Part shown: piece after piece, positions 40,081 through 58,107 of the stretch
Numbering within the stretch: the stretch's first letter is position 1
Layout of the letters: every line of letters begins with the position of its first letter
DNA from: an uncultured Clostridium sp.
GTDB taxonomy: Bacteria > Bacillota > Clostridia > Lachnospirales > Lachnospiraceae
Direction of reading: 5' to 3'
DNA: 64,000 nt
NCBI GenBank assembly: GCA_947178475.1
Contig: CAMWYM010000004.1
Span: 1 to 64,000, forward strand
Notes under the pieces: model-generated
What the model saw: the letters and a program-made list of their open reading frames with translations, nothing else
The model's database searches: none
What the model was told of the DNA's origin: nothing
Program-made: the position numbers and the translations under genes

Positions 40081-40665
40081 TTAATCCTTTACCGGTGCAA
40101 AGGACAGCTGTGCTTCCTCCATGGCCTGCTGCTTAAAGTCTTCAATCTTATCCGGTGTGATAATCGGCAGCTCATCGGTAGACTGTACACCAAAGCTTCT
40201 CAAAAAGTCATCGGTAGTCCCAAAAAGGATAGGTCGCCCTGCTGCTTCCAAACGTCCGACCTCCTGAATCAGATTATATTCCACTAATTTATTCACTGCA
40301 TGTACACAGGAAACACCTCGTATCGCTTCAATCTCCTGTCTGGTAATAGGCTGCTTGTATGCTACAATGGAGAGTGTTTCCAACAGCACATCGGTCAGTA
40401 TATGCTTCTTCGGAATATTGATTACTTTTACCAGGGTGTCATAATAGTCTGCCTTGGTACACATTTGAAATGCATCCTCCAGCTCAACAATCCTGACTCC
40501 GCGATTCACACCATCATATTTATCCATCATATTATGTATAATTTTTACCACTGTATCCACGTCTAATTCCAGTGCCTGGGCAATCCTCTCTCTTCCGACT
40601 GCCTCTCCCACCGAAAACAGTATCGCCTCGATTTTTCCTTCTATTACATTAATATCCTGTTCCAT
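40081..40665 (-). CDS. scpB: ScpB, condensin-like segregation protein
   Basis: ScpB is the winged-helix kleisin partner of the SMC-ScpAB complex. Two winged-helix domains are visible (MEQDINVIEGKIEAILFSVGEAVG; ETLSIVAYKQPITRQEIEAIRGV). ATG 40665 lies 5 bases after AGGAG. The open frame runs 37 codons further but that part is encoded by the palindromic element at 40680-40754, so it is not part of the protein. Confidence 0.96.
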   Translation of the reverse strand: MEQDINVIEGKIEAILFSVGEAVGRERIAQALELDVDTVVKIIHNMMDKYDGVNRGVRIVELEDAFQMCTKADYYDTLVKVINIPKKHILTDVLLETLSIVAYKQPITRQEIEAIRGVSCVHAVNKLVEYNLIQEVGRLEAAGRPILFGTTDDFLRSFGVQSTDELPIITPDKIEDFKQQAMEEAQLSFAPVKD

Positions 40666-40679
40666 ATTTACTCCTGTCA

Positions 40680-40754
40680 TTTGTAACCAATTTTGCTCTG
40701 CAAAATTGATTGCCTGCTTGCCCGCCATCACGGAGTGATTCTTAATGCGGGCAA
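40680..40754 (-). repeat. Dispersed palindromic element, copy A (full two-hairpin form)
   Basis: It lies between scpA and scpB. Plus strand: hairpin 1 is AACCAATTTTGC-TCT-GCAAAATTGATT (40685-40711). A 6-base linker follows. Hairpin 2 has an 8-bp outer stem TTGCCCGC / GCGGGCAA (40718-40725 / 40747-40754) around a 21-base loop that itself holds ATCAC-GGA-GTGAT. Related copies are at 44670 and 57950. In gene sense it ends 5 bases before the scpB ribosome site. Confidence 0.85.
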
Positions 40755-40784
40755 TTCCCGTCTCATAAATTTTCATAATCTACT

Positions 40785-41588
40785 TTACACTATCTTTTCA
40801 CCTGTAATATCTTCCTCTGTTGCCGCCGCCTCATCCCCAGTCTCAAGCTCATCCAGCGAATCAATCATTATCTCACCAAAGGTCTCCTCCTGACGGATAG
40901 CAATCGCACCAACCTTCATCAATTCCAAAATGGACATAAACGTGATAATAATATTCATTCTGGTAGGCTGGGTTTCCAACAATGTACGGAAATTAATTCC
41001 CCTCAGTCCCCGCAGCTCCTCTCGTACCTGAACCATACGATCCTCGATACTGATTTCCTCTTTTTCAATCGTTCCAAACTTCGAACGTATTGGATCGATT
41101 TTATCCACCTGCCTGCGCATAATAGACTTAAAGATATCATTAAGCATGGCAAGCGTCATACCATCCACCAGCTCTGCCGGGTCTATCTCCTCCTTGTAGG
41201 CTGTCACCTGCTGGGGAATGGTCGGTTTTTTGTAAAAATTTCGAGAGGCATCTAATTCCATATCCTTTAATTCCAGCGCTGCATACTTATACATTTTGTA
41301 TTCTAACAGACGTCTGACCAGCTCCTCCCTCGGATCTTCCTCCTCCTCTTCCTTTTCCTCTCTCGGAAGAAGCATCTTAGATTTAATCTGAATAAGCGTT
41401 GCCGCCATCACCAAAAATTCGCTCATGACGTCCATATTACGTTCCTGCATCTGACCCACATAGTCCAAATACTGCTCTGTAATAATCACAATGGGAATAT
41501 CATAAATGTCTACCTTATTCTTTTCAATTAAATGCAGCAACAAGTCAAGAGGTCCCTCAAACACCTGCAGTTTATATTCAATGTTCAT
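40785..41588 (-). CDS. scpA: ScpA, condensin-like kleisin
   Basis: ScpA is the kleisin that bridges SMC heads in chromosome condensation. The N-terminal signature (YKLQVFEGPLDLLLHLIEKNKVDIYDIPI) and the C-terminal winged helix (FMSILELMKVGAIAIRQEETFGEI) are intact. 267 residues is normal. It precedes scpB, separated by the palindromic element. Confidence 0.97.
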   Translation of the reverse strand: MNIEYKLQVFEGPLDLLLHLIEKNKVDIYDIPIVIITEQYLDYVGQMQERNMDVMSEFLVMAATLIQIKSKMLLPREEKEEEEEDPREELVRRLLEYKMYKYAALELKDMELDASRNFYKKPTIPQQVTAYKEEIDPAELVDGMTLAMLNDIFKSIMRRQVDKIDPIRSKFGTIEKEEISIEDRMVQVREELRGLRGINFRTLLETQPTRMNIIITFMSILELMKVGAIAIRQEETFGEIMIDSLDELETGDEAAATEEDITGEKIV

Positions 41589-43935: not shown

Positions 43936-44652
43936 TTATACCCCTCCTAAAAGAGCCTCCGCAACCCTTAGGTCATAAGGGTATGTAATCTTAATATTGG
44001 ACTCCTCACCCTCCACCAGATGTACATTTTCACCCTTCATCACCAGTATTTTACAGGCATCTGTCAAAATCTTTTTCTCCTCCTCGGTAAGCGATTCATA
44101 AATCGTCTTTAAATGCTTTGCCTTAAAGGATTGTGGCGTCTGTCCCTGATACATCACAGAACGATCCGGAATATCACTAATCATCTGATGATCCTTGCTC
44201 TCCACAATGGTATCCGTCGCCGGAATAACCGTATCGCATGCACCATACTCCTTTGCATAACGAATATTTTCCTCCAAAATTCTATGGGTCACAAAAGGTC
44301 TTACCGAATCATGCGTTACGATAACCGTATTCTCTTCCAGCATTCCATTCCCTTCAATGTGTGAAATCGCATTCATAATGGTTTCATTGCGGGTATCACC
44401 GCCTTCAATCACCTGAATTCTGTCATCGGCAGGAATATATTTCCGAATTAAATCCTGCGTATGCTTAATCCATTGCTTTGGTGTCAACACAAGAATACCG
44501 CAAAATTCAGTATTCATGATAAATTTCTCTATCGTATGCACGATAATCGGCTTTCCGCCAAGCTCCATAAACTGCTTTGGTTTTTCTACATTCCCCATTC
44601 TGGTTCCCTTGCCTCCGGCCAGAATAACTCCATACACATTACTTTTTTCCAT
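43936..44652 (-). CDS. tarI: TarI-like ribitol-5-phosphate cytidylyltransferase
   Basis: Nucleotidyltransferase of the IspD/TarI family. The CTP-binding loop (VILAGGKGTRMG) and conserved VTHDSVRPFV and ATDTI motifs are present. With tarJ beside it and polyol-phosphate transferases around, CDP-ribitol synthesis is more likely than isoprenoid IspD function. ATG 44652 follows AGGAGG at 7 bases; the open frame upstream runs through palindromic element copy B. Confidence 0.9.
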   Translation of the reverse strand: MEKSNVYGVILAGGKGTRMGNVEKPKQFMELGGKPIIVHTIEKFIMNTEFCGILVLTPKQWIKHTQDLIRKYIPADDRIQVIEGGDTRNETIMNAISHIEGNGMLEENTVIVTHDSVRPFVTHRILEENIRYAKEYGACDTVIPATDTIVESKDHQMISDIPDRSVMYQGQTPQSFKAKHLKTIYESLTEEEKKILTDACKILVMKGENVHLVEGEESNIKITYPYDLRVAEALLGGV

Positions 44653-44669
44653 ACTGCTTCCTCCTGTTA

Positions 44670-44709
44670 TTTGTAACCAATTTTGCAAAGCAAAATTGAT
44701 TATCTGCTT
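44670..44709 (-). repeat. Dispersed palindromic element, copy B (hairpin 1 only)
   Basis: The plus strand shows hairpin 1, AACCAATTTTGC-AAA-GCAAAATTGATT (44675-44701), then ATCTGCTT as in copy A (GCCTGCTT). Hairpin 2 is absent. In gene sense it ends 5 bases before the tarI ribosome site. Confidence 0.8.
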
Positions 44710-44717
44710 TTCACTAT

Positions 44718-57122: not shown

Positions 57123-57189
57123 TTTCCTCTCCCCTGCTGTTATGAACCCTAACAGGAGAAATGCTTGCGCGTCAGCGCAATTCATTATA
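57123..57189 (-). promoter_or_regulatory. Candidate promoter and structured leader of the GlsB-type gene
   Basis: Minus strand: extended -10 TGT-TATAAT (TATAAT at 57184-57189) with no clear -35. The leader then holds a 6-bp hairpin TTGCGC / GCGCAA (57165-57180) and a second stem pairing CTCC with GGAG and TGTTA with TAACA (about 57123-57161). No known riboswitch recognised. Confidence 0.4.
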
Positions 57190-57236
57190 ACATGATTTTA
57201 AACAATTTTCTTGGTTATTCACAAAACAATGAGAAG

Positions 57237-57767: not shown

Positions 57768-57798
57768 TCAATAACAAATATATCTAAGAATAATCTGC

Positions 57799-57933
57799 CT
57801 AATGGCATCCTCTGCACTTTGAACAGTCACCACCACATTGTAATGATTTTCCACTCCTCTTATCCCGAATCATGCTCCGGATACTAAGCGCAACGATACC
57901 GGCTAAAACCACACCAACTATAACTGTCCCCAT
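57799..57933 (-). CDS. FeoB-associated Cys-rich membrane protein
   Basis: A 44-residue protein: a membrane helix (about 2-21, GTVIVGVVLAGIVALSIRSM) and a tail with CGGDCSKCRGCH. This is the FeoB-associated Cys-rich family encoded after feoB in Firmicutes, thought to help iron transfer. ATG 57933 has GGAGG 7 bases upstream; the longer open frame is encoded by element copy C. Confidence 0.88.
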   Translation of the reverse strand: MGTVIVGVVLAGIVALSIRSMIRDKRSGKSLQCGGDCSKCRGCH

Positions 57934-57949
57934 TTTTACACCTCCATCT

Positions 57950-58090
57950 TTTGTAACCAATTTTGCTCCGCAAACTTCGTTTGTTGCGATAGTCGCTAAA
58001 TGTGTGTGCAAGCACCCACGCTTAGCTCGTTATTCGCACAAATTGATTACCTATTCACGTGCCATTACGAAGTGATTTTCATGCACGTGA
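57950..58090 (-). repeat. Dispersed palindromic element, copy C (two hairpins plus insert)
   Basis: It lies between feoB and its Cys-rich partner. Plus strand: AACCAATTTTGC (57955-57966) is followed by TCCGCAAA, then about 62 bases with several small hairpins (for example GCGA-TAG-TCGC), before AAATTGATT (58040-58048) resumes. A 6-base linker and hairpin 2 follow: outer stem TCACGTGC / GCACGTGA (58055-58062 / 58083-58090) around a 20-base loop close to that of copy A. Confidence 0.85.
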
Positions 58091-58107
58091 TACCTTAAAC
58101 AAGAATT

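Follow-up and report, generated by a model that had tools for sequence, protein, structure and literature searches.

Dispersed two-hairpin elements at Shine-Dalgarno and -10 sequences of Lachnospiraceae genes: candidate non-autonomous mobile elements

The window analysed here, a 64,000-nt stretch of DNA from an uncultured Clostridium sp. of the family Lachnospiraceae, carries copies of what appears to be a superfamily of elements of about 50-190 bp, in which two hairpins are joined by a GYAGG foot. These elements have a covarying structure, are dispersed through the genome, keep one orientation and one position with respect to expression signals, are accompanied in one of their two types (P) by a duplication, and are spread among species. 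We consider it likely that they are non-autonomous mobile elements which insert in a single orientation at expression signals and which, as predicted from the sequences, leave the signal working.

Results

Two types of element were defined by their right ends, GGTTAC in the S-type, to which copies A, B and C of the window belong, and GGTGAC in the P-type, and the end sequence goes with the kind of site occupied (GTTAC in S and GTGAC in P). All the copies of the window lie on its minus strand. Copy A is a full S-type element (40679..40796; BLAST match 40679-40794, covariance-model match 40683-40754 with 94 bits) located between scpA and scpB, both identified by Pfam (ScpA/ScpB; scpB, 40081..40665, minus strand, PF04079, E=7e-52). 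Read on the minus strand, it consists of (GA)TAGTGTAAAGTAGATTATGAAAATTTATGAGACGGGAA, hairpin 2 (40718..40754; outer stem TTGCCCGC/GCGGGCAA and inner hairpin ATCAC/GTGAT), the foot GCAGG (40713..40717), which separates the two hairpins and is conserved in the S and P types, and hairpin 1 (40683..40712; AATCAATTTTGC AGA GCAAAATTGGTTAC, with a conserved T.G pair), followed by AAATGACAGGAGTAAATATG, which is the Shine-Dalgarno sequence and start of scpB. The right end, TTACAA, adjoins this Shine-Dalgarno sequence (CAGGAG), and the ATG start codon (40663-40665) likewise comes after the copy. Copy A has a left extension of 38 nt, and its left end, (GA)TAGTGTAAAGTAG, contains stop codons in all three frames, the stop codon of scpA being supplied by the element.

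Copy B (44669..44716, minus strand; BLAST and covariance model) is a short S-type element between the CDP-glycerol glycerophosphotransferase gene and ispD (43936..44652, minus strand; PF01128 (IspD), E=5e-48). It has the left end GATAGTG, the foot and hairpin 1, without hairpin 2, and is followed by ACAGGAGGAAGCAGTATG. Copy C (57950..58104, minus strand; left end CTTGTTTAAGG; covariance-model match 58012-58090) is a type-2 S element whose hairpin 1 is enlarged at its apex by a long structured insertion. It is located between feoB and the gene for a FeoB-associated Cys-rich membrane protein (57798..57933, minus strand; PF12669, E=6e-16), whose Shine-Dalgarno sequence, GGAGG, comes after the copy. 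The window also contains a P-type remnant (57163..57191, minus strand), in which a -10 box and the P left end follow each other (TTATAATG and then AATTGCGCTGACGCGCAAGC) and the right half is lost.

An earlier note on this DNA had described copies A and C, both with the two hairpins and with a conserved linker, which we recovered together with the third copy, B; the limits it had given for copy A were too short. Its statement that the outer stems of A and C pair perfectly was confirmed, but they do not differ completely, since TTGCCCGC and TCACGTGC differ at four of the eight pairs, all of them on both sides. The two copies are different subtypes (type 1 and type 2, respectively) with unlike outer stems. 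Mechanical ORF calls ran scpB (40666-40776, ATG 40776) into copy A and ispD (44653-44688, TTG 44688) into copy B, and over-extension of this kind is a likely source of mis-annotated N-termini.

Single-strand folding of the gene-sense strand gave z scores against shuffles of -3.5 for A, -3.6 for C and -4.0 for B. In an alignment of 20 S-type copies with 26 pairs, 96% of the cells were paired and nine pairs (46 cells) were changed on both sides, a number reached by none of 500 shuffles; when the partner strand was slid, pairing fell to 27-48%. Sixteen of the 20 rows had been picked by a search that required paired outer arms; the inner hairpin of hairpin 2, which had no part in the choice of rows, showed two-sided changes at three of its four pairs, in seven to nine sequences each. 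Covariation in helix 2 and in the hairpin 1 apex, neither of which had guided the choice of most rows, was no weaker than in the outer stem, so that selection on the structure of the S elements, as the earlier note had argued, is supported. The foot (GCAGG or GTAGG) lies 5' of hairpin 1 and is common to the S and P types. The T.G pair of hairpin 1 was kept on the sense strand in all 20 rows and the wobbles of hairpin 2 occurred in both directions, so that wobbles do not fix the strand, as had been noted before; the strand can nevertheless be decided, because every intact copy is oriented with its downstream gene, and the element is thus read on the gene-sense strand, the minus strand of the window.

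The position of the S-type, and that of the P-type at -10 signals, are absent from the earlier note. An S right end was scored as placed at a gene start when a start codon followed 10-25 nt on, with a Shine-Dalgarno match of at least 4/6 and an open frame. This was the case for 64 of the 78 ends scored, 14 further ends having another copy next to them downstream. The distance from the right end to the start codon was 12-23 nt (mode 17-19), with the Shine-Dalgarno sequence just downstream of the element. The same test was passed by 7/78 P-type ends (S versus P, Fisher p=2e-21) and by 7% of random positions, and a random intergenic point and orientation, given the gene layout of the window, has a 4.5% chance of meeting a 12-24 nt rule. 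Of the copies that the covariance model was the first to detect, at least 16 obeyed the rule by inspection. The genes downstream look unrelated and are housekeeping genes, and none of the near-identical, recent copies was found in neutral 3' or convergent spacers.

Five of the 14 ends outside the rule were chance pattern matches. The others were located before AGTGGGAGGG, in nusG-rplK and a neighbouring ribosomal-protein leader (L179, L323 and L432), inside GA-cis RNA (L434 and L437), at two gene starts whose signal is weak or far away (L010 and L410), and at L180 and L240. Hairpin 1 is found in the nusG-rplK and nearby ribosomal-protein spacers both in the genome that carries the window (L432) and in the congener G018 (L179 and L323), where it is in tandem directly before AGTGGGAGGG; nusG-rplK is an older, shared insertion site.

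The spread of the distance to the Shine-Dalgarno sequence was similar to that of the distance to the start codon (SD 1.9 versus 1.7 nt), so that these spreads fit either one as the anchor. Type-2 copies nested in the loop of type-1 copies are followed by GATGGCGGGC, which is G-rich and is not a start site, and this hints that it is the motif, rather than the start codon, that is read in S targeting.

The P-type has the layout AATTGCGCTGATGCGC-AAGCAGG-TCATCAATTTTC...GAAAATTGGTGACA, with its parts in the same order as in S, and many P copies form tandem arrays with a period of 62-65 nt. A TATAAT sequence with no more than one mismatch was present within 12 nt to the left of 108 of 111 P copies, which usually begin directly after the box, as TATAATG, compared with 6.5% of random positions and 3/29 S left flanks. 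The left and right flanks of a P copy matched each other better than flanks drawn from separate copies did (z=5.7), with columns -5, -6 and -8 of NTATAATG giving z values of 3.5-4.6, a likeness that we read, from the flanking sequences, as the mark of a target-site duplication. In G024, the orthologous region upstream of the second enolase gene (eno2) has TATGTTATAATGAAT and no element, consistent with a -10 box that predates the P insertion. Relatives lack the boxes present at rplI and hisG, and for this reason part of TATAATG may travel as a piece of the P element.

For S-type flanks, a variable-offset test did not detect a target duplication (p=0.6), and a fixed-offset scan gave one z of 3.5 among 84 tests; the flanks at scpB and L016 look duplicated individually and were left out of the count. 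As no duplication was detected, S insertion is not proven base by base; S may enter by a route unlike that of P, or its left boundary may have been misjudged.

The 3.1-Mb genome carrying the window (G000, 90% complete) has 37 exact sites of the hairpin-1 sequence ACCAATTTTGC and 58 BLAST matches of the element. A covariance-model search, proposed in the earlier note, gave 66 matches, so that copies elsewhere are not few, and P copies too were retrieved by a model made solely from S copies. These numbers are underestimates, because contigs break inside the repeats; contigs C145, C97, C157, C62, C77 and C94 are among many that end in this way. Among 60 relatives searched, three congeners (G018, G021 and G023) had multi-copy families. 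A scan for the pattern in 85,462 species genomes gave at least 94 stretches, mostly in Lachnospiraceae, and Schaedlerella arabinosiphila, Dorea sp. 5-2 and Lachnospiraceae bacterium 28-4 were among the matches listed; the exact S pattern was rare (2/397 genomes of the family). Searches of plasmid and phage collections found no elements, and none of 28 pattern matches in the viral collection was a true element.

Copies within G000 were 97-99% identical by BLAST, and a copy in G023 was 99% identical, whereas the orthologous genes of these species mostly show 70-82% identity. At the starts of scpB, ispD, pdp, eno, luxS and rlmD, same-genus orthologs mostly had a short spacer from which the element was absent; these empty sites come from relatives about 78% identical, rather than from strains, and the L007 gene is an exception, its G018 ortholog also carrying an element. 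Copies 97-99% identical in congeneric species with genes only 75-80% identical, together with the empty orthologous sites, indicate on sequence grounds that the elements are mobile, in agreement, as is their dispersion, with the MITE/REP-like family suggested previously. A vertically inherited conserved leader is ruled out by the contrast in identity between element and genes.

Type-2 copies were found nested within type-1 copies. GA-cis RNA (RF02987), copies of which are dispersed leaders in G000 and G021, holds hairpin 1 at one and the same internal place in two genomes (L434 and L437), and a third copy of this RNA (L157) is without it, which makes a possible occupied/empty pair. A second kind of repeat present in this genus, GTACTAAG...AAGTACCGACGG...GAGTTTYGCAATTACCTA, also occurs upstream of luxS, eno, rlmD and other genes in several species (L096, L100, L108, L140, L160, L180 and L212), with one copy antisense beside a P element. 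A further variant, in which AGCTCGCTGATGCTCGCGCAGGTCATCAATC is combined with an unlike apex, is found at L005 (minus 930) and L189 (plus 288).

A search for Y1_Tnp (PF01797) found none in the 90% complete G000 and one to four in G018, G021 and G023, and a search for reverse transcriptases found one weak match in G000. In the genus, neither Y1 nor reverse-transcriptase genes had an element-like hairpin nearby, and neither a Y1 transposase/RAYT nor a reverse transcriptase is supported as the partner. Neither the surroundings of unpaired P left ends nor the Schaedlerella genome yielded a long element sharing the ends.

Discussion

In the mechanism that we propose, a putative trans-acting enzyme would recognise the ends in their folded form, probably that of DNA hairpins, and would select the site, a G-rich Shine-Dalgarno-like (S) or a -10-like (P) stretch of target DNA. 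Ending a few nt before the Shine-Dalgarno sequence, the S element would form the 3'-terminal part of the 5' leader of the gene, and the stop codons that its left end is predicted to supply in three frames would let the operon still read correctly. Insertion of the P element would take place at the -10 box, a few bases of which would be duplicated, and TATAAT would be kept directly at the left end of the element. That S and P are sister systems which target host expression signals (Shine-Dalgarno or -10), in the sense direction only and with the signal rebuilt, is a more tentative proposal, to which we give somewhat less than an even chance. If it is true, such elements could spread through essential operons at little cost, the signal being rebuilt. 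A cis-acting RNA role is possible, and the leader may influence translation or mRNA stability.

Position at expression signals could also arise if insertion were near-random and selection kept the copies at Shine-Dalgarno sequences (S) or promoters (P) that help expression, in which case the element would be a mobile leader RNA acting in cis, for example a translation standby site, an RNase site or a protein-binding leader. The S copies, all in 5' leaders and in sense, the stable hairpins that precede the Shine-Dalgarno sequence by a few nt, and the hairpin 1 grafted into a GA-cis leader fit this explanation. Random insertion, however, predicts unselected copies elsewhere, and the recent copies, 97-99% identical, are missing from many neutral 3' and convergent spacers; the downstream genes are unrelated housekeeping genes and the P copies occupy another signal, and we judge selection after near-random insertion to be unlikely.

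SINE-like movement as RNA, with reverse transcription into the target, would account for the constant 3' end, the left truncations, the sense orientation and the variable duplications. Five copies (L183, L184, L015, L083 and L086) have indeed kept the right end and lost the left, and the duplication at P copies points the same way; four others (L017, L018, L070 and L085) are nevertheless short by internal deletion with both ends kept, and G000 has a single weak reverse-transcriptase match, with no element near such genes, which leaves this route rather improbable. The chances are slighter still that selection acts on the product of the short type-1 ORF (MKIYETGIARIKNHFVMAGKQAINFAEQNWLQ), such as a coupled leader peptide. 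Its frame is open and in copy A it fuses to scpB, but its start is lost in L007 and L071, its frame is shifted in L027 and broken by nested type-2 copies, and the ORF is absent from type-2, P and short copies; the frame-breaking copies contradict a leader peptide as the selected product. Site-directed insertion of a mobile element remains our preferred reading.

The operons affected include important genes, such as scpB, ispD, enolase and luxS. If the targeting is real, it would be a naturally evolved means of adding leader sequence without breaking genes, an idea that is testable in cultivable gut bacteria. Near-identical leaders of this kind could pass for conserved regulatory RNAs, which is a warning for annotators.

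The earlier note knew of no named family with this layout, and our searches agree: no Rfam family scored above its gathering threshold, or with relaxed thresholds, and the open-access literature describes no such elements in Lachnospiraceae, although this is weak evidence, most subscription papers being outside its scope. REP/REPIN sequences with RAYT transposases comprise GTAG- and CGTC-tagged repeats (PMC3733652) and REPINs (PMC3116915), the GTAG repeats being reported in Proteobacteria, Cyanobacteria, Chloroflexi and PVC, and not in Firmicutes (PMC3733652). Like them, the elements are small, high-copy intergenic palindromes presumably mobilised in trans, and the foot GYAGG beside hairpin 1 resembles the GTAG/GGAG of REP, being similar rather than identical and internal rather than terminal. 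Unlike them, the element is made of two different hairpins in a fixed order, is without a RAYT/Y1 gene in G000, and is placed strictly at a Shine-Dalgarno or -10 sequence in one orientation.

The MITEs RUP and Correia (PMC2229807) are likewise non-autonomous, dispersed and hairpin-forming, of about 100 bp, and a target duplication is shared with the P-type, but their TA target is not used by our element. Short, multi-copy, non-autonomous and apparently mobile, the element has the general characters of a MITE; when its ends were compared by eye no terminal inverted repeats were seen, and no parental IS was found. The MIRUs of mycobacteria are short units in the intercistronic gaps of operons, in gene orientation and compatible with translation; their insertion sites are overlapping stop/start codons, and they contain ORFs. 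Our element is also found in intercistronic gaps in gene sense; it differs from MIRUs in its position before the Shine-Dalgarno sequence, its conserved hairpins and its promoter-seeking sister family. It shares with GA-cis RNA (RF02987) the condition of a structured, dispersed leader in the same genus, with a different sequence and fold, and it has the covarying structure in 5' leaders that marks a structured cis-regulatory RNA.

Thus the elements resemble REP/REPIN and MITEs in scale and lifestyle and lack what defines these (RAYT and terminal inverted repeats), and placement at start signals without breaking them is described for no named repeat family that we found. Bacterial mobile elements usually spare their hosts, using spacers, terminators or other elements as landing sites; the landing sites here are the ribosome-binding site and the -10 box, entered in sense and with the signal apparently surviving.
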